Below are positions 1 through 19,977 of a DNA stretch of 64,000 bases, piece by piece. The stretch covers positions 3,162,001-3,226,000 of the forward strand of contig NZ_CP077077.1 in assembly GCF_019139675.1 (NCBI RefSeq). Direction: 5' to 3'. The DNA is from Pseudomonas maumuensis. GTDB taxonomy: Bacteria; Pseudomonadota; Gammaproteobacteria; Pseudomonadales; Pseudomonadaceae. The translations under genes were made by a program, and so were the position numbers. The notes under the pieces are model-generated. The model did not search any database. It was not told the DNA's origin and worked only from the letters and a program-made list of their open reading frames with translations. How positions within the stretch are numbered: position 1 is the stretch's first letter; every line of letters begins with the position of its first letter.

Positions 1-465
1 TTGCAGCCGCGCCTCACGCCCGTACTGGGGGTGGCGCCACAGCGAAGTGGCATCGTCACGGTGCAGGGGTTGCAGGCCTTGGCCCGGGCCGATCTGAATG
101 GCCTGGGTGATGCTCAGCTGGATATCGGGCGCCATCTCGATGCGGTCACTGCCTACCCAGACGTGAGTAGGGGTTTGCAGGATCTGTCTGGCCACGCCGA
201 GGAACAGCGGGTTCATCGCTACTTCGACAGCCGTGTCGCTGCGCCCGATGATCCGCGCGACACGCCGGGTCTGGGTGCCCGCGAAATAGGGGTCGACGCC
301 GCAAGGGGTGACATTCAGGTAGCTGTCCAGTTCGTCGCGCAGGGCGTTCAGCGTGGCCGGCGAGACCAGGTCGGAAATGATGACCCCACCGTCACGCCGA
401 ATGATCTCCACCACCTGCTCGACCGATGCATCGCTGCCGAGCGTCGAGAGCGTTCGTGTATCCAT
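1..465 (-). CDS. Phytanoyl-CoA dioxygenase (PhyH) family protein, partial
   Basis: The minus strand reads open from an ATG at 465 to the window edge, giving the first 155 residues; the C-terminal part lies outside the window. The fragment contains LHRDD near residues 138-142, which supplies the HxD pair of a 2-oxoglutarate/Fe(II) dioxygenase of the PhyH superfamily. The downstream distal His and the Arg that binds 2-oxoglutarate would fall outside the window. Family members hydroxylate unactivated carbons of small acids, amines or acyl groups; the substrate here is unknown. The gene diverges from a TetR regulator across a 321-bp region holding a palindromic motif (621-649) that recurs upstream of the monooxygenase gene, so common control is likely. 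EctD belongs to the same superfamily, but the visible part does not single it out. Confidence 0.7.
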   Translation of the reverse strand, partial: MDTRTLSTLGSDASVEQVVEIIRRDGGVIISDLVSPATLNALRDELDSYLNVTPCGVDPYFAGTQTRRVARIIGRSDTAVEVAMNPLFLGVARQILQTPTHVWVGSDRIEMAPDIQLSITQAIQIGPGQGLQPLHRDDATSLWRHPQYGREARLQ

Positions 466-786: not shown

Positions 787-1368
787 ATGGCTCGAATTGG
801 CGCAGAAGAGCGCAGGCAGGATTTCATCGAGGCCACCGTGAAGGTGATCGCGGAACATGGGGTGGCCAACGCCACGACGCGGCGTATCGCAGCGGCGGCA
901 GACTCTCCGCTGGCTTCGTTGCACTATGTCTTCCACACCAAGGACGAGTTGTTCTATGCCGTCTACGAGTCCTTGATCAACCTGCCGCAGCAATCGCTGC
1001 AGCACGTGCCGGCGGGTGCCACGGCAGCTGAATCGGTGGGTGAAATGTTGCGCCAGCTGGTCAACTGGTTCACCGCCCACCCGGAAATGGCCACTACGCA
1101 GTTCGAACTGTTTTGCTGGAACCTGCGCAACAACCCGGAGATGGCAGCCAAGATCTACGCCGTGTCCATCGACGCGGCCCAGCAGGCCATCGCCAAAGTC
1201 ACCGGTTCGGCGCTGGACCAAGCCGCAGTGGCCACCGTCAGCCGCTTGCTGATCAACCTGTTCGACGGCCTGATGCTGGCCTGGTCCGCCCACGGCGACC
1301 GTGCGCGCCTCGAAAGCGAAACCGAGACCGCCTGCCAGGCGGTCAAGCTGCTGGTGGCCAGCTACTGA
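787..1368 (+). CDS. TetR/AcrR family transcriptional regulator
   Basis: This 193-residue protein has the normal TetR length. Residues about 10-55 form the helix-turn-helix domain, with recognition-helix residues SPLASLHYVF and the typical following sequence KDELFYAVY. The rest is a ligand-binding domain that does not reveal the effector. The start is taken at 787 because AAAGGAG lies 7 bases upstream; a longer reading frame from 658 has no such site. It lies between a divergent dioxygenase gene and a downstream monooxygenase/hydrolase operon, and the same palindromic motif lies ahead of both flanking transcription units. It probably represses the monooxygenase operon and itself until an inducer, perhaps a ketone or acyl compound, binds. 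Specific function is unknown. Confidence 0.85.
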   Translation: MARIGAEERRQDFIEATVKVIAEHGVANATTRRIAAAADSPLASLHYVFHTKDELFYAVYESLINLPQQSLQHVPAGATAAESVGEMLRQLVNWFTAHPEMATTQFELFCWNLRNNPEMAAKIYAVSIDAAQQAIAKVTGSALDQAAVATVSRLLINLFDGLMLAWSAHGDRARLESETETACQAVKLLVASY

Positions 1369-1495: not shown

Positions 1496-1547
1496 CAAGG
1501 TGCAAACCATCCCAAAACGATGACGATCCGGTGCATTTTGCACCTTG
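1496..1547. promoter_or_regulatory. Inverted repeat upstream of the monooxygenase operon
   Basis: CAAGGTGCAAA at 1496-1506 is repeated as its exact reverse complement, TTTGCACCTTG, at 1537-1547. The right copy is itself part of a tight palindrome GGTGCA-TTT-TGCACC (1530-1544). It lies 80-130 bp before the monooxygenase start and about 30 bp upstream of the TetR-type site, a usual location for an activator site. It has no T-run and does not look like the TetR terminator. The binding protein is unknown. Confidence 0.5.
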
Positions 1548-1628: not shown

Positions 1629-3155
1629 ATGTCCTCGCACACTGCTCTTCCGGTTGAGCCGCTCGACATTTTGATCATGGGAGCCGGTGTGTCTGGCATC
1701 GGCGCGGCGGCCTACCTGCGACGTCATCAACCCAACAAGACCTTCGCGATTCTCGAGTCCCGCGAACGCATGGGCGGCACCTGGGACCTGTTCCGTTATC
1801 CCGGCATCCGCTCCGACTCGGACCTCTACACCTTCGGTTTCGACTTCAAGCCCTGGACCAAGGCGAAATCCCTGGCGGACGCCGCGGATATTCTCGAGTA
1901 CCTGCGCGAAGCCATCGACGAGTACCAGCTCGAACCGTTCATCCAGTACCAGCAGAAAGTCGTCTCGGCCAACTGGCAAAGCGACAGGGGCCTGTGGGCA
2001 GTGCGCATCGAGGAGGGCCAGACGGCCCAGGTGCGTACGCTCGAATGCCGCTGGCTGTTCAGTGCGGGTGGCTACTATCGCTATGACCAGGGCTTCACCC
2101 CCCGCTTCGAGGGCACCGAGCAGTTCAAAGGACAGATCGTTCACCCGCAACACTGGCCGGAGAACCTCGACTATGCGGGCAAGCGCGTGGTCGTCATCGG
2201 CAGTGGCGCGACCGCGGTGACGCTGATTCCGGCCATGGCGGACAAGGTCGCCAGCATCACCATGCTGCAGCGCACGCCTTCCTACATCATCAATCAGCCG
2301 GCCAATGACGGGGTTGCCGCGTTCCTGCGCAAGGTCCTGCCGGCGCAAACCGCCTACTCCCTGACGCGCTACAAGAACGCCAAGATCACCCTGGCGTTCT
2401 GGGGCTTCTGCCAGCGCTTCCCCAAGCTTTCGAAAAAACTGCTGCTGTGGCTGACCCGCAAGGAGTTGCCGAAAGACTACCCGGTCGACGTGCACTTCAA
2501 CCCACCCTACAACCCGTGGGACCAGCGTCTGTGTTCGGTGCCCGAGGGCGACCTGTTCAAAGCCATCAGTGCCGGCAAAGCCGACATCGTCACCGACCAT
2601 ATCGAGCGCTTCACCGAGTCCGGCGTATTGCTCAAATCGGGCAGGACGCTGGAGGCCGACATCATCGTCACGGCCACCGGGCTCAACGTACAAATGTTCG
2701 GTGGCATCACTCTGCACAAGGACGGCAAGCCGGTGGTACTCAGCGAGACCCTGTCCTACAAAGGCATGATGCTCTCCGGCGTGCCCAACTTCGCTTTCGC
2801 GGTGGGCTACACCAACTCGTCCTGGACCTTGAAGGTCTGCCTGCTGTGCGACCACTTCTGCCGCCTGCTCGGTTTCATGGCGCGCGAAGGCTACAACGTC
2901 TGCGAGCCGAAGGCGCCGGCCGGGATCGAAACCCGCCCTCTGCTGGACTTCGGGGCCGGCTATGTGCAGCGCGCGCTCGACAGCATGCCGCGCCAGGGGC
3001 CGTGTGAACCCTGGGTGATGTCGATGGACTACTTCCGCGATATCAAACTGCTGCGCCGCGGCACAGTGGCGGAAAAGTGCCTCAGCTTCAGCAGCGTGCC
3101 GAACGTGCCGGTGCATGCCGGCGTCGAACTGCAGCAGCCAGGTAGCCGCCGATGA
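1629..3155 (+). CDS. Flavin-containing Baeyer-Villiger monooxygenase
   Basis: The 508-residue protein should use FAD, NADPH and oxygen to insert oxygen next to a ketone carbonyl, giving an ester or lactone. An N-terminal Rossmann motif GAGVSG (about residue 18) binds FAD, and GSGATA near residue 194 binds NADPH. Between them lies [12 protein letters not shown] (about 166-177), an exact match to the Baeyer-Villiger fingerprint FxGxxxHxxxWP. A strong TAGGAGG ribosome site lies 8 bases before the ATG. Its stop overlaps the start of a downstream alpha/beta hydrolase by 4 bases, which fits sequential ester formation and hydrolysis. It could act on cyclic, steroid-like or aliphatic ketones; the substrate cannot be read from sequence. 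Confidence 0.9.
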
Positions 3156-4027
3156 GCCGTGATCGCTTCTGCGAGCTACCGGGCAAAGGCAAGCTCTGCT
3201 ACCGCAGCTACGGTGTCGAGGGTGCCCCGGCGGTCCTGCTCATCGTCGGCCTCGGGCTGCAGCTGACCTACTGGCCGCAAGCGCTCATCGCCGGGCTGGT
3301 CGCACAAGGGTTGCGGGTCATCACGCTGGACAACCGTGACTCGGGCAGATCGTTCTTTACCGACGTGGCGCCCCCAACGACGCTGCAGCAGTTCCTGCGC
3401 AAGCGCACCCCAGGCTATGACCTGGGCGACATGGCCAACGACGTCATCGGCTTGATGGACGACTTGCAGCTGCAAGCAGCGCATGTCGTGGGAATGTCGA
3501 TGGGCGGCATGATCGCCCAGACCCTCGCCGCGCGTTACCCGCAGCGAATCAGGACCCTCACGTCGATCTTTTCCACCACGGGTTCCCTGCGCGTCGGCCA
3601 GCCGGCGCTCAAGGCCCTCCTGCAGCTGCTGCGCCGCCCGCCGCGCAGCGAGAAGGAAAGCGTTCGCGACTACGTGGACATCATGCGTCTGATCGGCTCC
3701 ACCCTCGAGTGGAACGAGCCCGTCTTGCGTGAGTATGCCCAGCTGGCTTGGCAGCGAGGCGGTGGCGAGGCCAGCAACCTCGGTACCGCCAGGCAGATCG
3801 GCGCGATCATCAACTCCGCCGACCGCACCGAGGAGCTGCAGCGGATTCGTTGCCGCACCCTGGTCATCCATGGGGAAAAAGACCTCATGGTCGCCACCAG
3901 CGGCGGCTACGCCACGGCGGCGGCGATCCGTGGTTCCAATCTGGTGTTGCTGCCCGGGATGGGGCATGACTTTCCGGCGCGCCTGTCCACCACGCTGCTG
4001 TCCCTGCTGACGGGGCACCTGCGTTAA
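3152..4027 (+). CDS. Alpha/beta hydrolase (probable esterase or lactonase)
   Basis: This is a 291-residue alpha/beta-hydrolase. The nucleophile elbow GMSMGG sits near residues 112-117, and a late GHD (about residue 272) supplies the catalytic His; an acid in the EKD region near 245 could complete the triad. [20 protein letters not shown] is the typical sequence of the 3-oxoadipate enol-lactonase/haloperoxidase-like branch. It overlaps the monooxygenase stop by ATGA, indicating translational coupling, and ends before a clear terminator. I infer that it opens the ester or lactone made by the monooxygenase. No lid domain or signal peptide is visible, so it should be cytoplasmic. Confidence 0.85.
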
Positions 4028-4245: not shown

Positions 4246-5403
4246 ATGGAATTCAAGTTCTTACTCCCCAGCAAGATCGTGATGGAACCTGGCCTGCGCG
4301 AGCGCACCGGTGAACATCTCCAGGGCCTCGGCCTGGCACGGGTGCTGATCGTGACCGATGCCGGGGTCAAGGCCGCCGGCCTGCTGGACAGCGTCTATGC
4401 CAGCCTGGACAAGGCAGGTATCGCCTACGAGGAAGTCACGGACATCAAGGCCAACCCGCGCAGCGAAGACATCAACCGCACCGCGCAGCAGTATCGTGGC
4501 AAAGGCATCGACGGCCTGCTGGCCGTGGGCGGCGGCAGCGCGATGGACGCGGCCAAGGCCATCAGCCTGCTGCTCACCCACGAGGGGCGGATCGAGGACT
4601 ATGAAGGGTCGTTCACCCTCAAGCACGCCATACCGCCGATCGTCGCCATCCCGACCACCTCAGGCACCGGCAGCGAAGTGACCTGCTTCTCGGTGATCAC
4701 CGACACTGCCCGTCATTTCAAGATGAACGTGCTGGATTATCGCATTGGCCCGGTACTGGCACTGCTCGACTCGCACATCACCGACACGCTGCCCGCGTCA
4801 ATCGCCGCCGCCACCGGCATGGATGCCCTGACCCACGCCATCGAGGCCTACACCTGCCGCGTGGCGAACCCGATCAGCGACGGCCTGGCGCTGCATGCCA
4901 TCCGCCTGATCAGCCAGCACCTCAAGGCGGCGGTGCAGGAGCCGGACAATCAGCAGGCCCGGGAGCAGATGCTGGTGGCCAGCCTGATCGCCGGCATGGC
5001 ATTCGGCAACGCCGACGTCGGCAGCGTGCACTGCATCTCCGAAGCGATCGGCGGCATGTACGACACGCCCCATGGCGTCGGCAACGCGATCTTCCTACCC
5101 TTCGTCTTCGGCCACAACCGCGATGCCGACATCCTGCGTCACGCCCAGGTGGCCTACGCCCTGGGGATCGACCCGACGCTGGCGCCGGTGGACGCCGCCG
5201 AGGCGGCCGTGGGCCATCTGTTCCAGATGAGCAAGGACCTGGGCATTCCTTGCTTCGCCGAGGTCAAGGGCGTGCGCGAGGAAGACTTCCAGGCCATCGC
5301 CGAAAAATCCAAGCTGAACTTCTCGGACGCCAGCAATGCCAAGGCGATGTCCGTCGAGGCCTATCACGCCATCATCACCACCGCTTACCACTTCGTCGCG
5401 TAG
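4246..5403 (+). CDS. Iron-containing alcohol dehydrogenase
   Basis: At 385 residues this matches group III Fe-dependent alcohol dehydrogenases. The N-terminal NAD-binding part holds GGGSAMDAAK (about 92-101), and TTSGTGSEVT follows near 138-147. Metal ligands are supplied by GMDALTHAIEAY (about 193-204) and by the downstream GGMYDTPHGVGNA segment. The ATG at 4246 is chosen because AAGAGG lies 7 bases upstream and it matches family N-termini such as MEFKFLLP; an in-frame ATG at 4219 is less likely. It heads a closely spaced operon with an amine permease, an aminoaldehyde dehydrogenase and two aminotransferases, so its natural substrate may be an amino alcohol or the matching aldehyde. That is inference. 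Confidence 0.88.
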   Translation: MEFKFLLPSKIVMEPGLRERTGEHLQGLGLARVLIVTDAGVKAAGLLDSVYASLDKAGIAYEEVTDIKANPRSEDINRTAQQYRGKGIDGLLAVGGGSAMDAAKAISLLLTHEGRIEDYEGSFTLKHAIPPIVAIPTTSGTGSEVTCFSVITDTARHFKMNVLDYRIGPVLALLDSHITDTLPASIAAATGMDALTHAIEAYTCRVANPISDGLALHAIRLISQHLKAAVQEPDNQQAREQMLVASLIAGMAFGNADVGSVHCISEAIGGMYDTPHGVGNAIFLPFVFGHNRDADILRHAQVAYALGIDPTLAPVDAAEAAVGHLFQMSKDLGIPCFAEVKGVREEDFQAIAEKSKLNFSDASNAKAMSVEAYHAIITTAYHFVA

Positions 5404-5415
5404 GAGGGCTGCGTC

Positions 5416-6747
5416 ATGAGTGATTCAACCTCCAGCGCCTCGTTGCGGCGCACCTTGGGGCCGTTCTCGGTGCTGCTGTTCGGCCTGGCGTTCCTTGCCC
5501 CGCTGATCGTTTTCGGCACCTACGGCGTGATCACCCAGGCCAGCGGCAACACCACGGCGATGGCCTACCTGATCGCGGCGACCGGGGTGGTGTTCACCGC
5601 GTTGAGCTACGGGCGGCTGGTCAGGGTATTTCCGGTAGCCGGCTCGGCCTACACCTATACCCGCAAGATGCTCAATGCCAATCTCGGGTTCATGGTGGGC
5701 TGGGCTGCCCTGCTCGATTACTTCTTCATCCCGATGCTGATCTGGCTGCTCGGTGCCAGCTACCTCAACATGGCCTTTGCAGACGTTCCGCAGTGGGTGT
5801 GGATCAGCGGTTTCATCGTCACCACTTCAGTGCTCAATGTCCTCGGCATCCAGGTCGCCAACCGCTTCAACGTGCTGTTGATGGTCGCGCAACTGGCGAT
5901 CATCGTCGTGTTCCTTGGCCTGTGCGTGCATTACATCGTGGCAGCCAACGGCCCTGGCGGGCTGCTGTCGGCCAAGCCGTTCTTCAGTCAGGACGTGCCC
6001 TTCGCCACCAGCATGGCCGGCGCCGCCATTGCCGCCTACTCGTTCCTGGGCTTCGATGCGCTGTCCACGCTGAGCGAGGAAACCCGAGATCCGGGCCGGA
6101 CGCTGCCACGCGCCATCCTGCTGGTCGCGTTGATCGGCGGTTCGGTCTACGTGGGCTCCTCGTACTTCATGTACCTGGCACACCCCTCCCCCAGCTTCGA
6201 GCAAGTGGACGGGGCCGCCTTCGAGATCGCCCGGATGATCGGCGGCGATGTGTTCTTCGCCGTGGTGCTGGCGGGGATCATCATCGCCCACTTCGCCGCC
6301 GGCATGTCGTTCCAGGCCAGCGTGGGGCGGCTGCTCTACGCCCTCGGCCGGGACAACCAGCTGCCGCGCAAGGTGTTCGGTGTCCTGCATCCGCGCTTCA
6401 AGACCCCGGCCTTCAACATCCTGCTCTGCGGCGTTTTCGGCACGGCCGGTTTTGCCTTGACCATCGCCACCGCGACGTCGCTGGTCAACTTCGGCGCGTT
6501 TGTCGCCTTCACCGCCGTCAACCTGTGTGCATTGCGGCTCACCTTCGATGCCCGCGTCAAGGATGGCGCCGGCCTGCTGCGCGGCGTGCTGTTCCCGCTC
6601 ATCGGCCTGGTCACGGCCGGATGGATGCTGATCAGCCTGGATAAAGACGCGCTGATCATGGGCAGTTGCTGGCTCGGCCTGGGGCTGGTCTACCTCGCCT
6701 GCCGCACCAGCTTCTTCCGCAGCCCCGTCCCTGAGGCATTGGTATAG
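5416..6747 (+). CDS. APC-superfamily permease, PuuP (putrescine importer)-like
   Basis: This 443-residue inner-membrane transporter has about 12 hydrophobic segments. The N-terminal half resembles the E. coli putrescine importer PuuP as I remember it, including SYGRLVRVFPVAGSAYTY and GFMVGWAALLDYFFIPM. It begins 12 bases after the alcohol dehydrogenase stop, with TAGGAGG overlapping that stop codon. Because the next gene encodes a PatD-like 4-aminobutanal dehydrogenase, a diamine or amino acid is the likely substrate. Specificity is not proven by sequence; other APC carriers for ethanolamine or GABA look similar. Confidence 0.85.
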   Translation: MSDSTSSASLRRTLGPFSVLLFGLAFLAPLIVFGTYGVITQASGNTTAMAYLIAATGVVFTALSYGRLVRVFPVAGSAYTYTRKMLNANLGFMVGWAALLDYFFIPMLIWLLGASYLNMAFADVPQWVWISGFIVTTSVLNVLGIQVANRFNVLLMVAQLAIIVVFLGLCVHYIVAANGPGGLLSAKPFFSQDVPFATSMAGAAIAAYSFLGFDALSTLSEETRDPGRTLPRAILLVALIGGSVYVGSSYFMYLAHPSPSFEQVDGAAFEIARMIGGDVFFAVVLAGIIIAHFAAGMSFQASVGRLLYALGRDNQLPRKVFGVLHPRFKTPAFNILLCGVFGTAGFALTIATATSLVNFGAFVAFTAVNLCALRLTFDARVKDGAGLLRGVLFPLIGLVTAGWMLISLDKDALIMGSCWLGLGLVYLACRTSFFRSPVPEALV

Positions 6748-6826: not shown

Positions 6827-8251
6827 ATGCAAAGCAAACTTCTGATCAATGGTGCCCTGGTAGCCGGCGAAGGCGACGAGCTGGCCGTGTACAACCCCTC
6901 CCTGGGCAGCGTCCTGGTGCAAACCACCGAGGCCAGCCAAGCCCAGGTCGAGGCCGCGGTGCAAGGCGCCGATGCAGCCTTCGAAGCCTGGTCGCAAACC
7001 CCGCCCAAGGACCGCGCGGCGCTGCTGCTCAAGCTCGCCGACAGCATCGATGCCCAGGCAGCGGTGTTCGCGCGCCTGGAAGCCGACAACTGCGGCAAGC
7101 CCTACACCGCCGTGCTGCAGGACGAGCTGCCGGCGGTGTCGGACGTATTCCGCTTCTTCGCCGGCGCCGTGCGCTGCCTGCAAGGCTCGGCCGGGGGCGA
7201 GTACATCCCGGGGCACACCTCGATGATTCGTCGCGATGCGGTCGGCGTGGTCGCCTCTATCGCGCCGTGGAACTACCCCTTGCTGATGGCGGCCTGGAAA
7301 CTCGGCCCGGCCTTGGCCGGCGGCAACACCGTGGTGCTGAAACCCTCGGAACACACGCCGATGACCACCCTGAAACTGGGTGAACTGCTGGCCGAGATCT
7401 TCCCTGCCGGCGTGGTCAACATCGTCCATGGTCGGGGGGCTACGGTTGGTGAGCCGCTGACCAGCCACGCCAAGGTGCGCATGGTGTCGCTGACCGGCTC
7501 CGTGCGCACCGGCAGCCGGATCATCGAGGGCACCGCCGACAGCGTCAAACGCATGCACATGGAATTGGGCGGCAAGGCCCCCGTGTTGATCTTCGACGAT
7601 GCCGATATCGACGCGGCCGTCGAAGGCATTCGTGCCTTTGGCTTCTACAACGCAGGCCAGGACTGTACCGCCGCCTGCCGTCTGTATGTGCAGCAGTCGG
7701 TCTACCCGGAGTTCGTGCGCAAGCTCGGCGAAGCCGTGGCCAGCATCAAGTGCGGGCTGCAGGATGATCCCTCGACCGAGATGGGGCCGCTGATCACCGA
7801 AGAGCACCTGGGCCGTGTCGAGGGCTTCGTCAAGCGTGCCCGCGAAGTGCCTCATATCGAAGTCATCACCGGTGGCAAGCGCGCTGCTGGTGGCGGGTTC
7901 TTCTTCGAACCGACGGTCCTGGCCGGTGCCCGCCAGGACGACGAGGTGGTCTGCCGGGAGATCTTCGGCCCGGTGGTGACGGTCTCGTCGTTCGAGGACG
8001 AGGCCCAGGCGCTGGCCTGGGCCAATGACTCCGACTACGGCCTGGCCTCTTCGGTGTGGACCGCCGATGTCGGCCGCGCCCATCGCCTGGCCGCGCGCCT
8101 GCAATACGGCTGCACCTGGGTCAATACCCATTTCATGCTGGTGAGCGAGATGCCTCATGGCGGCGTGAAGCTGTCCGGCTATGGCAAGGACCTGTCCATG
8201 TATGGCCTGGAAGACTACACCGTGGTGCGCCACGTGATGTTCAAGCACTGA
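6827..8251 (+). CDS. Aminobutyraldehyde dehydrogenase (PatD-like)
   Basis: The 474-residue NAD-dependent aldehyde dehydrogenase aligns by eye along its full length with E. coli PatD (YdcW), which oxidises 4-aminobutanal to GABA in putrescine breakdown. Shared segments include [29 protein letters not shown] with the general-base Glu, [12 protein letters not shown] with the catalytic Cys, and [12 protein letters not shown]. The start at 6827 ([11 protein letters not shown]) is preferred to an ATG at 6812 because it gives the same N-terminus and length as PatD. It lies 79 bases after the permease gene. Related betaine-aldehyde dehydrogenases are possible, but the similarity to PatD is strong. 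Confidence 0.88.
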
Positions 8252-8294: not shown

Positions 8295-9548
8295 ATGAAC
8301 AACATCGAGACATTCGAACGGCTCGAGTCCAACGTGCGGATGTATTGCCGCGACCTGCCCCTGGTCTTCGATACCGCCCAGGGCAGCAAGATCCGCGGCG
8401 AGGATGGCCGCGAGTACCTGGACTTCTTCGCCGGCGCCGGTGCCCTGAACTACGGCCACAACGACCCGCGCATGCGCGATGCGCTGATCGCGTATCTGTA
8501 CGCCAACGGCGTGACCCATGCCCTGGACCTGCACACCACCACCAAGCGCCGGTTCCTCGAGGCGCTGGAACGCGACTTGCTCAAGCCGCGCGGCTGGGAC
8601 TACAAGGTGCAGTTCACCGGCCCGACCGGCGCCGATGCCGTCGAGGCGGCATTGAAGCTGGCGCGCAAAGCGACCGGGCGGAGCAAGATCGTGTCGTTCT
8701 ATGGTGCCTACCACGGCATGACGGCCGGTGCGCTGGCCGTTACCGGCAACCGCACCCGGCGTGGCCCGGGGCTGTCCACCGACGTGGTGTTCGTGCCCTA
8801 CGAAGACAGCCCTTACGGTGAGTTCGACAGCATCGGCTTCCTCGAGCGCCTGGCCAACGACCAGGGCAGCGGCTCGGAATTGCCAGCGGCGGTGATCGTC
8901 GAATCCGTGCAGATCCAGGCCGGCGTGTACGTCGCTTCCAACCAATGGTTGCAGCGCCTGCGCCAGTGGACCCGGGCGCACGGGGTATTGCTGATCTGCG
9001 ACGAGATCCAGGCTGGCTGCGGCCGCACCGGTGACTTCTTCGGTTTCGAGCGCTCCGGGGTGGTCCCTGACCTGATCACCTGCGCCAAATCGATCGGTGG
9101 CTATGGCCTGCCCATGGCCATCGTGTTGATCGGCGCCGGGCTGGATGTCTGGGAGCCGGGCGATCATATCGGCACCTTCCGCGGCAACCAACTGGCGTTC
9201 CTCACCGCCCAGATCGCCCTCGGCTATTGGCGCGACGAGCAGTTCCTGAAGTTGCTGGCCGCCAACTGCGCGGCCATGGAGCGCGCGGTCGCCGGCTACG
9301 CCGAGATTCCAGGGGTCGCCTCCGCGCGCTGCCGCGGCATGATCGCCGGCATCGATTTCGGCCGCGGCAACGTGGCCTTGGCCAAGGATGCCCAGCAGCG
9401 CGTGCTGCAGGCGGGCGTGCTGGTCGACCGCTGCGGGCCGAACGGCGAAATCATCAAGCTGATGCCACCGGTGAATACCCCGACCGAGCAGCTCGAACAG
9501 GGCCTCAAGGCGTTCGGCGAAGCGGTCGCGGCAGCGCTTGGTCAGTAA
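8295..9548 (+). CDS. Class III aminotransferase, EctB (diaminobutyrate aminotransferase)-like
   Basis: This PLP enzyme has 417 residues. The N-terminus (FERLESNVRMYCRDLPLVF), FFAGAGALNYGHN and VQFTGPTGADAVEAALKLAR follow the EctB pattern, in which 2,4-diaminobutyrate and aspartate semialdehyde interconvert. ICDEIQAGCGRTG carries the PLP-ring Asp, and TCAKSIGGYGLP the Schiff-base Lys. AAGAGG precedes the chosen ATG. There is no ectA or ectC nearby, and the neighbours are amine-degrading enzymes, so it probably deaminates a short diamine or diamino acid rather than making ectoine. Exact substrate unknown. Confidence 0.85.
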   Translation: MNNIETFERLESNVRMYCRDLPLVFDTAQGSKIRGEDGREYLDFFAGAGALNYGHNDPRMRDALIAYLYANGVTHALDLHTTTKRRFLEALERDLLKPRGWDYKVQFTGPTGADAVEAALKLARKATGRSKIVSFYGAYHGMTAGALAVTGNRTRRGPGLSTDVVFVPYEDSPYGEFDSIGFLERLANDQGSGSELPAAVIVESVQIQAGVYVASNQWLQRLRQWTRAHGVLLICDEIQAGCGRTGDFFGFERSGVVPDLITCAKSIGGYGLPMAIVLIGAGLDVWEPGDHIGTFRGNQLAFLTAQIALGYWRDEQFLKLLAANCAAMERAVAGYAEIPGVASARCRGMIAGIDFGRGNVALAKDAQQRVLQAGVLVDRCGPNGEIIKLMPPVNTPTEQLEQGLKAFGEAVAAALGQ

Positions 9549-9644: not shown

Positions 9645-11024
9645 ATGAACACGCTTACTGCAACCGCGCGCAACGATCTGGCAGCACTCATTCACCCCAA
9701 CACCAACCTGGCCCAACATCAGGAAATCGGGCCGTTGGTCATCAGCGCAGGCGACGGCGTGCGGGTCTTCGACGAACAGGGCAATGCCTATATCGAAGCC
9801 ATGTCGGGCCTGTGGAGCGTTGCCCTGGGCTTCAGCGAACAGCGCCTGGTCGACGCCGCCGTCGAGCAGCTCAGGCAACTGCCCTACTACCACAGCTTCA
9901 GCCACAAGACCAACGCCCCGGCCGCGGCGCTCGCCGCCAAGCTGGCGGAGCTTGCGCCCGGCGATCTGAACCATGTGTTTTTCACCAACTCAGGGTCCGA
10001 GGCCAACGACTCGGTGGTGAAGATGGTCTGGTACGTACACAACGCACTGGGCAAGCCCGCCAAGAAGAAGTTCATCTCCCGCCAGCAGGCCTATCACGGC
10101 GCTACCGTCGCCTGCGCAAGCTTGAGCGGCATCCCGTCGATGCACCGTGATTTCGACTTGCCGGCCATCCCGGTGCATCACCTGACCTGTCCGAACTTCT
10201 ATCGATTCGCCCGGCCAGGCGAGACCGAGGAAGCCTTTTCGGCGCGCCTGGCGGACGAGCTGGAGCACTACATCCTCGACGAGGGCCCGGAAACCATCGC
10301 GGCGTTCATCGGCGAACCGGTGATGGCCGCAGGCGGTGTGGTTCCTCCTCCCCAAGGCTACTGGGCGGCGATCCAGGCGGTGTGCAGACGCTACGACATC
10401 CTCGTGGTGATCGACGAGATCATCACCGGCTTCGGCAGGCTCGGGACGATGTTCGGCTCTGAGCTGTACGGGATCCAGCCCGATATCATGGTGCTGTCCA
10501 AGCAGCTCACCTCGTCCTATCAGCCCCTGGCCGCCGTGCTGGTGTCCGATGCCGTCCATGACGTCCTGCTCAGCCAGAGCCAGCGTTTGGGAGCCTTCGC
10601 CCATGGCCTGACCTGCACCGGCCATCCCGTCGCCACCGCGGTGGCGCTGGAAAATATCCGCATCATCGAGGAGCGCGACCTGGTGGGCCAGGTCCAGCGC
10701 CTGGCCCCTGAATTCCAGCGCCGTCTGCGCGCATTCGCCGACCATCCGCTGGTGGGCGATGTGCGCGGTGTCGGGCTGGTGGGCGCCATAGAACTGGTGG
10801 CGAACAAGGCCACCGGCCAACCGTTCGCCCAGCCCGGCACCTTGGGTGGCTATGTGTTCAAACAGGCACACAAGCACGGGCTGATCATTCGCGCCATCTA
10901 CGACACGATCGCCTTCTGTCCGCCGTTGATCTGCACCCAAGCCGATATCGAGGCGATCTTCAGCGCCTTCGAACGCACGCTGGCCGACGCGACTGAATGG
11001 GCCCGCGCACAGAACCTGTTGTAG
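9645..11024 (+). CDS. Class III omega-aminotransferase
   Basis: The 459-residue PLP-dependent protein belongs to the omega-amino-acid:pyruvate/putrescine transaminase branch. It shows MSGLWSVALGFSEQRL, FFTNSGSEANDS, YHGATVACASLSG, VVIDEIITGFGRLG (PLP-binding Asp) and VLSKQLTSSYQPL (catalytic Lys). The ATG at 9645 is chosen by alignment to the family start; a longer frame from 9564 overlaps the intergenic hairpin and is unlikely. A second aminotransferase in the same operon suggests that both amino groups of a diamine are handled, or two related substrates. Relatives in P. putida act on putrescine, cadaverine, beta-alanine or aromatic amines; the actual donor here is not known. Confidence 0.87.
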   Translation: MNTLTATARNDLAALIHPNTNLAQHQEIGPLVISAGDGVRVFDEQGNAYIEAMSGLWSVALGFSEQRLVDAAVEQLRQLPYYHSFSHKTNAPAAALAAKLAELAPGDLNHVFFTNSGSEANDSVVKMVWYVHNALGKPAKKKFISRQQAYHGATVACASLSGIPSMHRDFDLPAIPVHHLTCPNFYRFARPGETEEAFSARLADELEHYILDEGPETIAAFIGEPVMAAGGVVPPPQGYWAAIQAVCRRYDILVVIDEIITGFGRLGTMFGSELYGIQPDIMVLSKQLTSSYQPLAAVLVSDAVHDVLLSQSQRLGAFAHGLTCTGHPVATAVALENIRIIEERDLVGQVQRLAPEFQRRLRAFADHPLVGDVRGVGLVGAIELVANKATGQPFAQPGTLGGYVFKQAHKHGLIIRAIYDTIAFCPPLICTQADIEAIFSAFERTLADATEWARAQNLL

Positions 11025-11073: not shown

Positions 11074-12000
11074 GTGAGCACACAAAATGACCAGCGCTTC
11101 GACTTCGATGTATCGGTAGTCGGGCTCGGCGCCATGGGCACGATCATGGCCCATGCATTTCTCAAGCAAGGCAAGCGCGTGGCTGTGTGGAACCGATCAC
11201 CTGGCAAAGCGGCGGCGCTGGTCGCCGCTGGTGCTCAGCTGTGCGACTCGGCTCACGCCGCGCTCAGCGCAAGCCCGGTCACGGTCTTCGTGCTGCTGGA
11301 CGACCAGGCGACCCATGGCGTGCTCGGCATGCCGGGGGTGATGGCGGCGCTCGCAGGTCGCACAGTGGTCGATTACACCACCAACGGCCGCGACGAGGGC
11401 CTGGCGCTCCAGGCGCTGGTCAACGCCGCTGGCGGCCTGTACGTCAAAGGGATGATCGTGGCCTACCCGCGCAACGTCGGTCATCGCCAGAGCCACACCC
11501 TGCATACCGGCGATCGTGAGGGTTTCGAGCAGCATCGGACGCTGCTCGAAGCGCTGGCCGGGCAAACGATGTTCCTGCCATGGGACGAAGCACTGGCCTT
11601 TGCCACCGTGCTCCACGCCCAGGCATTCGCCACGATGGTGGCGTTCTTCGAGGCCGTGGGCGCGAGCGAGCGCTTCGGCCTGCCGGTGGCGGAGACGGCC
11701 CGGCTGCTGCTCGACACGTCACGGTTTTTCATCAGCGATGCGCTCGAGGAAGCGGTACGCCGACTCGAAGCGCAGGACTTCGCAGGCGATCAGGCCAGGC
11801 TCGATGTGCATGCCGGCGCCTTCGCCCACATCGCCCAGGCGCTGCACGCACAAGGGGCCTGGACGCCGGTCTTCGACGCCGTATGCGGGGTCGTGCAACG
11901 GGCTGAATCCATGGGCTACGGCGATCAGGACATCGTGGCGGCCACCCAGGTGTTCGCAGCGACCAACCCTCCCGAAACGGCCGCACAAAGGACCATTTAA
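11074..12000 (+). CDS. Imine-reductase-like NAD(P)-dependent oxidoreductase
   Basis: This is a 308-residue two-domain dehydrogenase. The Rossmann part starts with GLGAMG and continues to VWNRSPGK; the spacing fits the imine-reductase cofactor motif GLGxMGx5[ATS]x4Gx4[VIL]WNR[ST]xxK as I recall it. The segment after residue 165 (WDEALAFATVLHAQ) lacks the catalytic Lys that defines the related beta-hydroxyacid dehydrogenases. The C-terminal helical domain would form the dimer. The start is a GTG at 11074 with GAGGG upstream. It is the last enzyme of an operon for diamine and aminoaldehyde conversion, whose products such as 4-aminobutanal cyclise to imines, so imine reduction is a sensible role. 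A 3-hydroxyisobutyrate-dehydrogenase-like function is the main alternative. Confidence 0.75.
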   Translation: MSTQNDQRFDFDVSVVGLGAMGTIMAHAFLKQGKRVAVWNRSPGKAAALVAAGAQLCDSAHAALSASPVTVFVLLDDQATHGVLGMPGVMAALAGRTVVDYTTNGRDEGLALQALVNAAGGLYVKGMIVAYPRNVGHRQSHTLHTGDREGFEQHRTLLEALAGQTMFLPWDEALAFATVLHAQAFATMVAFFEAVGASERFGLPVAETARLLLDTSRFFISDALEEAVRRLEAQDFAGDQARLDVHAGAFAHIAQALHAQGAWTPVFDAVCGVVQRAESMGYGDQDIVAATQVFAATNPPETAAQRTI

Positions 12001-12078
12001 TGGCGCGCTTTATCAGGCTTTAGCCAACGCCACGGACCAGACTCGACGGTAATTACAAAAACAAAGCTGGAGGTTCCC

Positions 12079-12228
12079 ATGCGTCTTTTTGCCTTACTAG
12101 TTGCCAGCGTGACACTTGCCCTGTTCCTGACGGCGGTCTACACCCCACGGTCTGCCATGGCCAATCGATCGGGAGCGCACGCGGCGCACCCGATCGCGAG
12201 CATTGGCGATATCTTCCGGGGTTACTAG
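12079..12228 (+). CDS. Small exported or membrane-anchored peptide, 49 aa
   Basis: A 49-codon frame starts at 12079 with GGAGG 7 bases upstream, an unusually good ribosome site for a chance frame. Residues 1-28 form a hydrophobic signal or anchor (RLFALLVASVTLALFLTAVY then AMA, a possible cleavage site). The remaining 20 or so residues are rich in Ala, His, Ile and Gly, with no Cys. It lies 78 bases after the imine-reductase-like gene on the same strand and just before a long palindrome. No family is recognised. It could be a secreted peptide or a small membrane protein tied to the amine operon. Confidence 0.5.
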   Translation: MRLFALLVASVTLALFLTAVYTPRSAMANRSGAHAAHPIASIGDIFRGY

Positions 12229-12268
12229 GGCCATCCCTTTCAAGGTCTTTGAGTGCGAGGGCTATTAA

Positions 12269-12581
12269 GTGCCCGCCGCATCTCTTGCAGCGCCTATGAG
12301 ATCGAGCGCCGCCCGCGCGGCGCATCGCTGGCAAGCCAGCTCCCACATCTGTTTCGGGCCAGTTATGCCTGCGCCGCCGCGGCTGTACGCCTTGTGGGTA
12401 CGACACGGTCTCAGCGTGGGCACCACTGGCGTCCCACTTGTCTCAAGACATGCACCAAGGCGGACAGCGACAACTTCACAGGACAGACTGGCCCGAAACA
12501 GATGTGGGAGCTGGCTTGCCAGCGATGCGCCGCGCGGGCGGCGCTCGATCTGCCAGGCGCTGCAGAACTTGCGGCGGACAC
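12269..12581. repeat. 313-bp imperfect palindrome containing two inverted REPs
   Basis: The 408-bp gap between the small peptide gene and lvaE is mostly one inverted repeat. A perfect 65-bp segment (12299-12363) recurs as its reverse complement at 12487-12551. The similarity continues outward for about 30 bp (CCGCCGCA and TGCAGCGCCT shared) and inward with decay (GCTGT-CGCCTTG shared). Each arm contains CATCGCTGGCAAGCCAGCTCCCACA, the REP core seen elsewhere in this window. It encodes no transposase and no credible protein. RNA from it would fold into a long hairpin between the convergent amine and lva operons. Confidence 0.85.
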
Positions 12582-12636
12582 CTGGTGGCCCTATCACACA
12601 GGGCTGCGCAAGCAGCGATGACTCGAATACCAGGGC

Positions 12637-14292
12637 TCACCCTTCCGGTCGATCGCTGGCTGCAGCGGCCGCTTGCCGAGCCCATTCGCGCAGGACGAAT
12701 TTCTGGATCTTGCCGGTGGCCGTCTTGGGCAACGCCACCAACGACACATGCCGCGGCGCCTTGAAGTGCGCCAGGCGCTCGCGACACCAGCGGATCAGCT
12801 CTTCGCCGGTGATACCCGCCTGTGCCTCGGCACACAGGGTGACGAAGGCATGCGGGGTTTCGCCCCAGCGCGAATCGGGCCGCGCCACCACGGCGGCCTC
12901 GAGCACCTCGGGATGCTGGTAGAGCACCTCCTCGATCTCCAGCGAACTGATGTTCTCGCCGCCCGAAATGATGATGTCCTTGGCCCGGTCCTTGATCTCC
13001 ACATAGCCATCGGGATGCAGCACGGCGAGGTCGCCCGTGTGCAGCCAGCCGCCAGCCAGGGCGCTGCGGGTGGCTTCGGGGTTGTGCAGGTAGCCTTTCA
13101 TCACCGTGTTGCCGCGCACCACCAGCTCGCCCAGGGTCGCGCCGTCGGCGGGCACCGGCTGGCCGGTTTCGCTATCCAGCACCGTGGCTTCCTCGAGCAT
13201 CGGATGGGCCACGCCCTGGCGGCTCATGAACCGCGCGCGAGCCTCCAGCGGCAGCTCATCGACGCCTGGCTGCCACAGGCACAAGGTACTGGGGCCATAG
13301 CTTTCGGTCATGCCATAGGCGTGGGTGATGCTGAAACCGCGCGCCTCCATGGCGGCGATCACCGCGCTGGGCGGTGCGGCGCCGCCGGTGATCACCGACA
13401 CCGCCTGGGACGGCGCGGCGCCTGCCGGAGCATGGATCAGCATCGACATCACCACCGGCGCGGCGCTCAGGTGGGTCACGCCATGCGCGGCGATGGCGGC
13501 GTGAATCGCCTCGGGCTGCACCTTGCGCAGGCACACATGGCAGCCGCCCGACAGGGTCACTGCCCAGGTATGGCTCCAGCCGTTGCAGTGGAACATCGGC
13601 AGAGTCCACAGGTAGACGCTGCGCGGGCCGAGCTGGAAGATCAGCGCTCCGGCGCAGGCATTGAGGTAGGCGCCGCGGTGATGCAGCACCACGCCCTTGG
13701 GATCGCCGGTGGTGCCGGAGGTGTAGTTGATGGCGATCGACTGCCATTCGTTGTGCGGCGCGCTCAACGGCCGGTTGCCATCGCCCTGGGCCAGGAAACT
13801 TTCGTAGTCCAGGTTCGGCGCCAGGTCGGTGCCCTCGGCCTGGGCATCATCGATGCCAACCAGCAGCGGCGGCGTGTCCAGCATCGCCAGCGCCTGGTGG
13901 ACCACCGCGCCGAATTCGCGATCGCACAACAGTACCCTGGCCGCGCAATGGCGCAGGATGAACGCGATGCTGCGCGCCTCCAGGCGGATATTGATGCACA
14001 CCAGCACGGCACCCGCGCCGGGCACGCCATAGTGCGCCTCGAGCATCTCGGGGATGTTCGGCGCCAGGATCGCCACGCGCTCGCCCGGCTGCACGCCAAC
14101 CCGCTCCAGGGCGCTGGCCAGGGCCCGGCTGCGCTGGTGCAACTGCTGGTAGGTGTAGCGACGGTTGCCGTACACCACTGCGTCGCGCTGCGGATAGACC
14201 TGCGCGGCGCGCTTGAGGAACGACAGTGGCGACAGCGGCACGTGGTTGGCCGCATTCGGGGCCAGTTCGTGTTCCAGGGTCGGGTTCATCAT
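12637..14292 (-). CDS. lvaE: Acyl-CoA synthetase, levulinate-CoA ligase (LvaE)
   Basis: The 551-residue AMP-forming ligase activates a carboxylic acid to its CoA thioester through an acyl-adenylate. It carries the P-loop YTSGTTGDPKG (about residue 190), YGMTES near 300, GWLHTGDLAVLHPDGY and the C-terminal hinge/lysine segment KTATGKIQK. The start at 14292 is chosen because GAGGGA lies 7 bases upstream; the frame extends further but without a ribosome site. It ends the lvaABCDE block. In P. putida LvaE makes levulinyl-CoA from levulinate. The name rests mainly on gene order, since medium-chain fatty acid ligases look alike. The stop lies 55 bp from the end of the long palindrome. Confidence 0.8.
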   Translation of the reverse strand: MMNPTLEHELAPNAANHVPLSPLSFLKRAAQVYPQRDAVVYGNRRYTYQQLHQRSRALASALERVGVQPGERVAILAPNIPEMLEAHYGVPGAGAVLVCINIRLEARSIAFILRHCAARVLLCDREFGAVVHQALAMLDTPPLLVGIDDAQAEGTDLAPNLDYESFLAQGDGNRPLSAPHNEWQSIAINYTSGTTGDPKGVVLHHRGAYLNACAGALIFQLGPRSVYLWTLPMFHCNGWSHTWAVTLSGGCHVCLRKVQPEAIHAAIAAHGVTHLSAAPVVMSMLIHAPAGAAPSQAVSVITGGAAPPSAVIAAMEARGFSITHAYGMTESYGPSTLCLWQPGVDELPLEARARFMSRQGVAHPMLEEATVLDSETGQPVPADGATLGELVVRGNTVMKGYLHNPEATRSALAGGWLHTGDLAVLHPDGYVEIKDRAKDIIISGGENISSLEIEEVLYQHPEVLEAAVVARPDSRWGETPHAFVTLCAEAQAGITGEELIRWCRERLAHFKAPRHVSLVALPKTATGKIQKFVLREWARQAAAAASDRPEG

Positions 14293-18024: not shown

Positions 18025-19977
18025 ATGCATTCCTCCGACTCCAAGGTCGTCGTGCTGATCAGCCACCTGCAACGCCCTCGGCAGCGCAGCCGTCTCGCCC
18101 AGGTCGTGAGCGGACTCACGGCGGATTACCCCGACACCCGTATCGAGGTGCTCGACACCTCGGTAGCCGAAGCGCTGCAGACCGCCCGCGAGCTGGAGCA
18201 GCGCGGCGAAGTCGATGTGTTCGTCTGCGCAGGGGCCACCGCCGCCTACCTGCGCAAGCACCTGGCCCGGCCGGTACTGGCAATGCGCGTCGGCGGCGGC
18301 GACTTGCTGCGCGCCCTGGGGCAGGCCAAGGCCCACGGCCGGCAAGTGGCCGTGCTCAGCTATGACCATATCAACCAGGACCTGCAGGCATTGGCAGCGC
18401 TGTTCACCGTGCAGATGCACCAGGCCGCCTACACCTCGCTGGAGCAAGCCCGCCAGGCCGTCGATCACGCCGCCCGGCTGGGCTGTGGCAGCATCATCGG
18501 CTCGTCTACCGTGGTGGAGCTGGCCGAACAGGCCGGGCTGCAGGGCGTGCTGTCGCTGAGCGAGGACACCGTGCGCAAGGCACTCGAAGAGGCCCTGGGC
18601 ATCCTCGACAGCCAGCGCATCGAAATTGCCAAGCGCCGCCACCTCGATGCCGTGCTGCAACATATCCCCACCGGGGTCGCGGCCGTCGACAACCAAGGCC
18701 TGGTGCAGTCGCTCAACCCGGCCCTGGCACAGTTGCTGGGGTTGCCGGCCAGCGCGGCGCTCGGCCGCCCGTTGCAGGCCCTGTGCCCCGAGCTGGACCT
18801 GCAGCAGGCCTTGCAGGACGGCACGGGCGAGGACAACCGCGTCATCCGCCTGGGCGCGCAAGCCGTGGTCAGCAACCTGCTGCCGATCCTGGAGAGCGGC
18901 GAGCGCACCGGCCTGGTGCTGACCTGCCAGGACATCAGCGCCGTGCAGCGGGCCGACCAGCGCATCCGCGTCAGCCGTCGCCCCGGCGCCTTCACCGCGC
19001 GCTACCGACTGGAACAACTGAGCGGCAACAGCAGGGCCAACCGCGAGATGCTGCAGCTGGCCGAGCGCTTCGCCGCCAGCCACTCGACCATCCTGATCAC
19101 CGGCGAGAGCGGTACCGGCAAGGAACTGCTGGCCCAGGGCATCCACAATGCAAGCCCGCGCCGGCAAGGCCCTTTCGTCGCCATCAACTGCGCGGCATTT
19201 CCCGAAACACTGCTGGAGAGTGAACTGTTCGGCTACGAGGAAGGCGCCTTCAGCGGTTCGCGCAAGGGCGGCAAGCCCGGTCTGTTCGAGGCCGCGCACC
19301 GCGGCACGCTGTTCCTCGATGAGATCGGTGACATGCCGGTGTCGTTGCAGACCCGCCTGCTGCGGGTGCTGCAGGAGCGCGAAGTGCTGCGCCTGGGCAG
19401 CACCGAACCGATCGCCATCGACGTGCGGATCATCGCCGCGACCCACCAGGACCTGGGCACGGCCATCGACCAAGGCAGGTTCCGCACCGACTTGTACTAC
19501 CGGCTGAACATCCTCCGGCTGCAGACCACGCCCCTGCGCGAACGCCCCGAGGACATCGCCCTGATCTGCCGGAGCATCGGCCAGCGTCTGCTGGTCCAGG
19601 GGCAGCCACCAGGCGCCGCACAGGTGGTGACGGCGCTGCTGCCCTACCTGGTGCGCCATGCCTGGCCGGGCAATGTTCGTGAACTGGAGAACGTGATCGA
19701 GCGGGCGATGCTGTCGGCCCGCGAACTGCTGCGCGACGAGGGGCTGGACGAGCAGTACCTGGCGCGGGTGCTGCCCGAGCTGTGCCAGGAGGGCCAGTTG
19801 CCATCCCGGCGCGCCAAGGCGCCGCAAGCGTCCGACCTGCAAACGGTGGGCAAGGCCGCGCAACTGCGCCACGTGCGGGAAACCCTGGACAGTTGCCAGG
19901 GCGACCTCGACGAAGCCGCGCGCCGCCTCGGCATCAGCCGCACCACCTTGTGGCGGCGCCTGCGGGCTGCGCGTTGA
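18025..19977 (+). CDS. lvaR: Sigma-54-dependent activator LvaR (PrpR-type)
   Basis: The 650-residue regulator has three parts. Residues 1-190 form a PrpR-N-type ligand-sensing domain, about 205-310 a PAS-like region, and about 330-560 the AAA+ domain. A C-terminal Fis-type HTH ends in LGISRTTLWRRLRAA. The AAA+ domain contains Walker A GESGTGKE (about 360-367), Walker B GTLFLDEIGD and the sigma-54 contact loop, which here reads GAFSGS (407-412) instead of the usual GAFTGA. It is divergent from lvaABCDE, whose promoter is of sigma-54 type. LvaR activates this operon in P. putida in response to levulinate or its CoA derivatives. The T-to-S change in the loop is conservative and may be natural in this branch. 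Confidence 0.82.
   Translation: MHSSDSKVVVLISHLQRPRQRSRLAQVVSGLTADYPDTRIEVLDTSVAEALQTARELEQRGEVDVFVCAGATAAYLRKHLARPVLAMRVGGGDLLRALGQAKAHGRQVAVLSYDHINQDLQALAALFTVQMHQAAYTSLEQARQAVDHAARLGCGSIIGSSTVVELAEQAGLQGVLSLSEDTVRKALEEALGILDSQRIEIAKRRHLDAVLQHIPTGVAAVDNQGLVQSLNPALAQLLGLPASAALGRPLQALCPELDLQQALQDGTGEDNRVIRLGAQAVVSNLLPILESGERTGLVLTCQDISAVQRADQRIRVSRRPGAFTARYRLEQLSGNSRANREMLQLAERFAASHSTILITGESGTGKELLAQGIHNASPRRQGPFVAINCAAFPETLLESELFGYEEGAFSGSRKGGKPGLFEAAHRGTLFLDEIGDMPVSLQTRLLRVLQEREVLRLGSTEPIAIDVRIIAATHQDLGTAIDQGRFRTDLYYRLNILRLQTTPLRERPEDIALICRSIGQRLLVQGQPPGAAQVVTALLPYLVRHAWPGNVRELENVIERAMLSARELLRDEGLDEQYLARVLPELCQEGQLPSRRAKAPQASDLQTVGKAAQLRHVRETLDSCQGDLDEAARRLGISRTTLWRRLRAAR

Follow-up and report, generated by a model that had tools for sequence, protein, structure and literature searches.

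The described protein closest to the gene studied here is the 'putative oxidoreductase' of Pseudomonas putida KT2440 with PDB entry 3L6D, which is probably the P. putida imine reductase (IRED) of Gand et al. 2014 and whose gene would adjoin PP_2799 in KT2440. The interdomain cleft of 3L6D is described in PMC10851217 as similar to that of RedE, an IRED-fold enzyme of reductasporine biosynthesis. We analysed a 64,000-nucleotide stretch of the genome of Pseudomonas maumuensis, a soil bacterium (NZ_CP077077.1, positions 3,162,001 to 3,226,000; hereafter the window) that encodes a close relative of 3L6D, 80% identical over 293 aligned residues. The two proteins share the LPWDEALAFATVLHA stretch and an Ala at the proton-donor position, with one residue in five differing, whereas RedE keeps an acid there (Asp168) and is biosynthetic. 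In our reading the window gene belongs to an amine-catabolic cluster with a TetR-family regulator of its own and encodes an imine reductase from an acid-less clade, which uses NAD(P)H and acts on an imine of that pathway; we put the probability of this reading at roughly 0.5.

The surroundings of the gene recall further described systems. The polyamine transamination pathway (SpuC, KauB/PatD, GabT) uses the same types of aldehyde dehydrogenase (ALDH) and class III aminotransferase as the window cluster, but to our knowledge the Baeyer-Villiger monooxygenase (BVMO), hydrolase, iron-containing alcohol dehydrogenase (FeADH), PhyH-family dioxygenase and IRED found here are not part of it. The swainsonine cluster, which is fungal and biosynthetic, encodes SwnH1 and SwnH2, the solved chains closest to the window PhyH protein (123.6 and 120.3 bits, the next at 95.9). 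In PMC5473758 its dioxygenases are proposed to act on a cyclic amine together with iminium-reducing enzymes. Its reductases differ, SwnN being described as NmrA-like and SwnR as a further reductase with a Rossmann fold. A literature search, with most subscription papers outside its scope, recognised no paper on the natural substrate of the cluster or on a natural role for the IRED, and the main text of PMC10949508 on RB-TnSeq modules contains no PP_28.. or PP_279.. locus tags.

Membership of the imine-reductase family, proposed in the first-pass annotation of this DNA, was supported by sequence, fold and tree, all of which place the protein beside 3L6D, and at second hand by papers that mention a P. 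putida IRED whose donor position is occupied by Ala. IRED cofactor sites follow the pattern GLGxMG...[VIL]WNR[TS]xx[KR], which residues 17-45 of the window protein fit with GLGAMG at residues 17-22 and VWNRSPGK at residues 38-45, the spacing that had been claimed. The predicted model (pLDDT 91.7) displayed a Rossmann domain, a long interdomain helix and a helical domain, corresponding to the IRED fold. Comparison of this model with solved structures, suggested by the first-pass annotation, sided with the IREDs: the top row of the fold search was 3L6D, IRED or reductive aminase titles then accounted for 40 of the 49 rows, and two rows carried 3-hydroxyisobutyrate dehydrogenase titles. The C-terminal RedAm-like domain (PF21761) was detected at 37.1 bits against a cut-off of 27, and a dN/dS of 0.11-0.20 against six relatives indicates purifying selection on a real and conserved open reading frame (ORF).

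The alignment used for the donor column comprised 145 sequences: 74 rows of the window protein's clade, 62 other IRED-side rows and nine beta-hydroxyacid dehydrogenase (beta-HAD) rows, which were selected for carrying the catalytic Lys at that column and were afterwards grouped apart by the tree. The 62 other rows carried Glu (38), Asp (15), Tyr (6), Ser (2) or Asn (1), whereas all 74 clade rows carried Ala (55), Ser (14) or Gly (5). Cofactor motif, fold and C-terminal domain are common to the window protein and the IREDs with the usual Asp/Glu/Tyr; the clade is set apart by these small residues and by a two-residue deletion immediately before the column, shared by 74/74 rows including the window protein. 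This gap can be placed in several ways, by eye none of which puts Lys, Asp, Glu or Tyr at the column. The earlier statement that the beta-HAD Lys is missing was therefore right but incomplete: Ala177 occupies the position, and the usual IRED donor is absent as well. Four residues further on, His181 is matched by His in 57/74 clade rows. In a tree of 111 rows (all 74 clade rows, all rows not from protein searches, and every third other protein-search row) the clade was split from the rest by a branch supported at 100/100, and so were the nine beta-HAD rows; the tree is midpoint-rooted with several long branches, which leaves its deeper joins unsure. The clade rows are a sample containing many near-copies (120 of 1583 matches listed, with one search scoring 7998 candidates only), and 11 of the 130 fetched proteins were left out of the alignment, nine by length and two (P0046 and P0061) by hand. 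The missing acid is no argument against activity, given the statements in three papers: functional IREDs can carry non-acidic residues at the donor position (PMC6120462), a wild-type P. putida IRED has Ala there (PMC7465668, citing Gand et al. 2014), and the same 2014 work is cited for an IRED with a neighbouring His (PMC7540600). Activity of this enzyme type is thus probably already known.

The gene setting was conserved in Pseudomonas. We tabulated 22 loci with the window's arrangement (operon A; 21 genomes and one plasmid) and four loci of a second type (operon B). Fourteen operon-A loci were found via the EctB-type aminotransferase gene in a search of 398 genomes of the genus, and the other eight only through IRED searches, so that IRED presence is biased in those eight. 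Of these 14 loci, 12 have the IRED (G045 and G318 lack it) and 12 the omega-transaminase (none in G045, a 17% stretch in G345), the totals over all 22 loci being 19 and 17. PhyH was present in 19/19 loci with that side fetched, a DAO-family flavoprotein gene in 14/18 covered loci (one partial, at an edge), and lvaE near the cluster in 20/20 covered loci. Operon B (G194, G970, G851 and a plasmid of strain H15) encodes an IRED 67-68% identical to that of the window, beside a TetR-family regulator 68-76% identical to the window TetR. PhyH, TetR and a fold-IV aminotransferase (one cut by Tn3) were found in 4/4 operon-B loci, DAO in 3/4 and MAO in 2/4, and among the best-scoring solved relatives of the fold-IV enzyme are several that bear the name of an amine transaminase or an (R)-selective transaminase. 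Both operons occur in G970. The recurrence of these partners (TetR, PhyH, DAO/MAO flavoproteins, amine transaminases, BVMO) argues that this IRED branch serves amine catabolism.

Table 1. Features of the P. maumuensis window (positions within the window)
Feature	Coordinates	Strand	Basis or remark
PhyH-family Fe(II)/2-oxoglutarate dioxygenase gene, N-terminal part	1..465	-	ATG at 465; runs on to genome position 3161578; PF05721, 140.7 bits
TetR-family regulator	787..1368	+	PF00440; ORF from 658, likely start 787
Palindrome GGTGCATTTTGCACC, candidate operator (speculative)	1530..1544		Upstream of BVMO
Baeyer-Villiger-type flavin monooxygenase	1629..3155	+	PF00743; BVMO fingerprint present
Alpha/beta hydrolase	3152..4027	+	ORF and Pfam match
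Iron-containing alcohol dehydrogenase (FeADH)	4246..5403	+	ORF from 4048, start 4246 assumed
APC-family permease	5416..6747	+	Pfam and NCBIfam matches
Aminobutyraldehyde-dehydrogenase-type ALDH	6827..8251	+	ORF from 6812
EctB-type class III aminotransferase (PP_2800-like)	8295..9548	+	ORF from 8268
Omega-transaminase, very close to KT2440 TA_2799 (PDB 9J2K)	9645..11024	+	ORF from 9564
Imine reductase family protein, close relative of PDB 3L6D	11074..12000	+	GTG start, 308 aa
Codon of Ala177 at proton-donor column	11602..11604	+	Alignment; His181 codon at 11614-11616
Levulinate operon lvaE, lvaD, lvaC, lvaB, lvaA	12637..17957	-	Convergent neighbour of IRED gene
lvaR-type sigma54 regulator	18025..19977	+	Gene order, comparison with p12939-PER

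The genes upstream of the IRED on the same strand (Table 1) would form an operon, judging from strand and spacing, with a gap of ~218 bp between the hydrolase and FeADH genes. The BVMO fingerprint is FxGxxxHxxxWP, and the flavin monooxygenase contains it. The first-pass annotation had described a PatD-like 4-aminobutanal dehydrogenase, two diamine-type aminotransferases and a PuuP-like importer. The ALDH scored above the NF010000 subfamily cut-off (802.9 vs 615 bits) but below that of the equivalog TIGR03374 (831.5 vs 909.3). Both aminotransferases are class III, one of the EctB/diaminobutyrate type, the other of the omega-transaminase type. The importer could not be confirmed as PuuP-like: it is an APC permease with no PuuP model among its 19 NCBIfam families, whether that library holds one being unchecked. 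That annotation had also passed over the TetR, BVMO, hydrolase and FeADH genes, the divergent PhyH gene, the adjacent lva operon and the missing IRED donor. The omega-transaminase matched KT2440 TA_2799, an enzyme assayed with (S)-methylbenzylamine and pyruvate (PMC12226076), with 935.4 bits over 460 residues. By type and numbering the EctB-type gene would be the equivalent of PP_2800, annotated as a diaminobutyrate transaminase (PMC11999294). On the divergent side, PhyH keeps the HxD...H...R residues, and beyond it, divergent from TetR, lie genes for DAO, a membrane protein without Pfam match, DUF1329, DUF1302, MMPL and YCF48-like proteins. To the left of the window (L087, 2445-9000) the last four come after PhyH and DAO, and a PucR-type regulator lies farther out; together these genes resemble a system for transporting the substrate through the envelope.

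We suggest that an amine enters via the APC permease and that three enzymes (SwnH-like dioxygenase, DAO flavoprotein and omega-transaminase) would turn it by oxidation into an amino-aldehyde or amino-ketone. The presence of BVMO, hydrolase and FeADH in the same run suggests a ketone (amino-ketone) intermediate, which these three enzymes may convert to an aminoaldehyde, the ALDH and the EctB-type transaminase then completing the breakdown. Amino-ketones and amino-aldehydes cyclise spontaneously to cyclic imines, and the IRED would interconvert cyclic imine and cyclic amine, most likely by reduction, preventing the build-up of a reactive off-path imine; the cluster TetR may regulate these genes. 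Any amino-ketone is in equilibrium with a cyclic ketimine, and substrates of this kind are used to test IREDs, methylpyrroline in PMC6120462 being one. From chemistry and adjacency we further speculate that transamination of the terminal amine of 5-amino-2-pentanone could give 4-oxopentanal and then levulinate, the compound that the neighbouring lva operon degrades. An extended form of the proposal, which we hold only tentatively and think improbable as a whole, would give the acid-less clade a dedicated catabolic role on cyclic ketimines, in a dioxygenase/Baeyer-Villiger pathway degrading alkaloid-like or 2-alkyl cyclic amines, with levulinate and similar 4-oxo acids exiting by way of lva and the proton supplied by water or His181.

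Outside the two operons the association was uneven. IRED relatives were found in eight plasmid records, and PhyH was present in three of the six contexts fetched, two of the three being Pseudomonas. PhyH relatives were found in 22 plasmid records, of which seven contexts were fetched by that match. The Rhodococcus qingshengii plasmid carries consecutive genes for a BVMO-like protein (fingerprint incomplete), an IRED-like protein (30%) and PhyH, with GS-family, ALDH, alcohol dehydrogenase (ADH) and amidase genes alongside, and on a Caballeronia plasmid an IRED-like gene occurs with a PhyH relative, close to genes for MAO and ALDH. The stretch fetched from R. gordoniae contains PhyH, GS-family, ADH and ALDH genes next to a BVMO with 43% identity to the window's, and no IRED. 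The amine-catabolic setting named at the outset thus holds for two Pseudomonas operon types and for one Rhodococcus and one Caballeronia plasmid, while other distant homologues lack it. Several observations count against our reading. IRED-like genes occurred in just 2/7 of the PhyH-fetched contexts (R. qingshengii, incomplete in the match, and Caballeronia); no PhyH or BVMO lies within 20 kb of three further IRED-type homologues (L068-L070) or of a beta-HAD homologue (L071), and none was matched in the fetched stretches of L091, L092 and L093. DAO is missing from 4/18 covered operon-A loci, and the absence of the IRED from G045 and G318, together with an L040 locus that has just a short match to the IRED C-terminal part, indicates that the cluster can exist without it. 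A palindrome search also yielded no operator common to the PhyH and BVMO promoters. Across the phylum, PhyH at E<=1e-50 matched its own genome alone among 299, so that PhyH-IRED co-occurrence is uncountable at that scale; the IRED at E<=1e-30 matched 4/398 genomes, two of them operon-A carriers.

The main rival has the IRED working oxidatively, an imported cyclic secondary amine (a 2-alkyl pyrrolidine or piperidine) being converted to an imine and then to an amino-ketone that feeds the BVMO. This fits the gene set with no dead-end product. An amino-ketone would require just such enzymes as the BVMO, hydrolase and FeADH, and a PhyH relative lies inside the ndp nicotine-degradation cluster of the Sphingobium plasmid pSH1 (L113, 5995-6870); set against the use of IREDs in assays mainly as reductases, we regard it as a minor possibility. 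Somewhat more doubtful is the role advanced by the first-pass annotation, the recovery or disposal of 1-pyrroline or 1-piperideine formed from putrescine or cadaverine. The aminobutyraldehyde-type ALDH and both class III aminotransferases adjoin the IRED, and in PMC11879879 PP_2800 makes glutamate from 2-oxoglutarate with 6-aminohexanoate, a quadruple disruption including PP_2800 abolishing growth on hexamethylenediamine. The same source, however, reports activity with diamine and pyruvate for SpuC-I and SpuC-II, and the role leaves BVMO, hydrolase, FeADH and PhyH unexplained, so that restriction to 1-pyrroline-type imines from diamines is perhaps too narrow. We think it unlikely that the protein is a reductive aminase joining an aldehyde or ketone to an amine for detoxification or modification: reductive aminases are among its structural neighbours and it has the Pfam RedAm-like_C domain, yet that domain is general among IREDs and the catabolic neighbours give no reason for N-alkyl amines. 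In favour of a beta-HAD, or of a beta-HAD relative that has lost its active site, stand weak NCBIfam matches to 2-hydroxy-3-oxopropionate reductase and related models (50 bits vs a cut-off of 340.75); the missing Lys, tree, fold, C-terminal domain and purifying selection all speak against this reading, which is very improbable.

Side observations concern individual loci. The G318 locus (L065/L104) is rearranged, with TetR-BVMO-hydrolase facing FeADH-APC-ALDH-EctB-omega-transaminase and an AraC-like regulator between, which suggests two separable modules. In G389 (L066) one stretch holds a BVMO match over 56% and an EctB-type gene over 81% of their lengths, possibly broken copies. A broken IRED in G1029 (one TGA) was dropped as a candidate because the tblastn match in L039, on the same contig, covers >90% without a stop; the one stop inside each of the G345 and G370 tblastn matches was taken as the natural end of the gene, open IRED frames existing in both (L037, L038). 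The L037 record, titled Pantoea sp. Cy-639, carries a cluster 93% identical to that of the window, and its label looks wrong. The 496-kb P. aeruginosa megaplasmid p12939-PER (L084, 307-22499) carries the cluster with lva, and a plasmid of 517 kb shares its IRED and PhyH matches. The Dietzia lutea plasmid (L092, 527-10592) has two IRED-like genes in the company of DAO-like, ALDH, P450 and two MAO-like genes, and may carry a further IRED-containing cluster for amine degradation.

The gene order of lvaABCDE and LvaR is identical to that of p12939-PER, where lvaB is annotated; gene roles follow PMC6692424. The gap between the IRED gene and lvaE (12001-12637) lacks the acetate symporter and DUF485 genes found there in p12939-PER and several relatives. 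It contains a 49-residue signal-peptide-like ORF (12079-12228), p12939-PER having a 50-residue hypothetical protein in the same place. GGTGCATTTTGCACC, the one palindrome that proved conserved, occurs upstream of BVMO alone: it recurs with 0-1 mismatch in the four other TetR-BVMO gaps compared and has at least five mismatches in PhyH-TetR gaps. The exact copy is the sole one in the window and one of two in the genome; with 2 mismatches allowed the window has 3 matches against 7.9 expected, which is no enrichment. A shared operator was rejected: none of the palindromes between PhyH and TetR in the window recurs closely in operon B or in the BVMO gap. The promoter/terminator scan of the window gave no excess over shuffles, and the tRNA scan found none.

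The protein itself is close to a known structure and probably to an enzyme that has been assayed; what makes it worth following is the conservation of its catabolic setting and the loss of the usual donor throughout the clade. That loss bears on whether IREDs need such a donor, a question raised in PMC7465668. A conserved P. putida-group cluster with a solved structure and a probably assayed KT2440 enzyme provides candidate substrates and a genetically tractable host, and the amine-degradation setting makes the natural job of industrially used IREDs testable. If true, the role on cyclic ketimines outlined above would give IREDs a first physiological function in a catabolic pathway.
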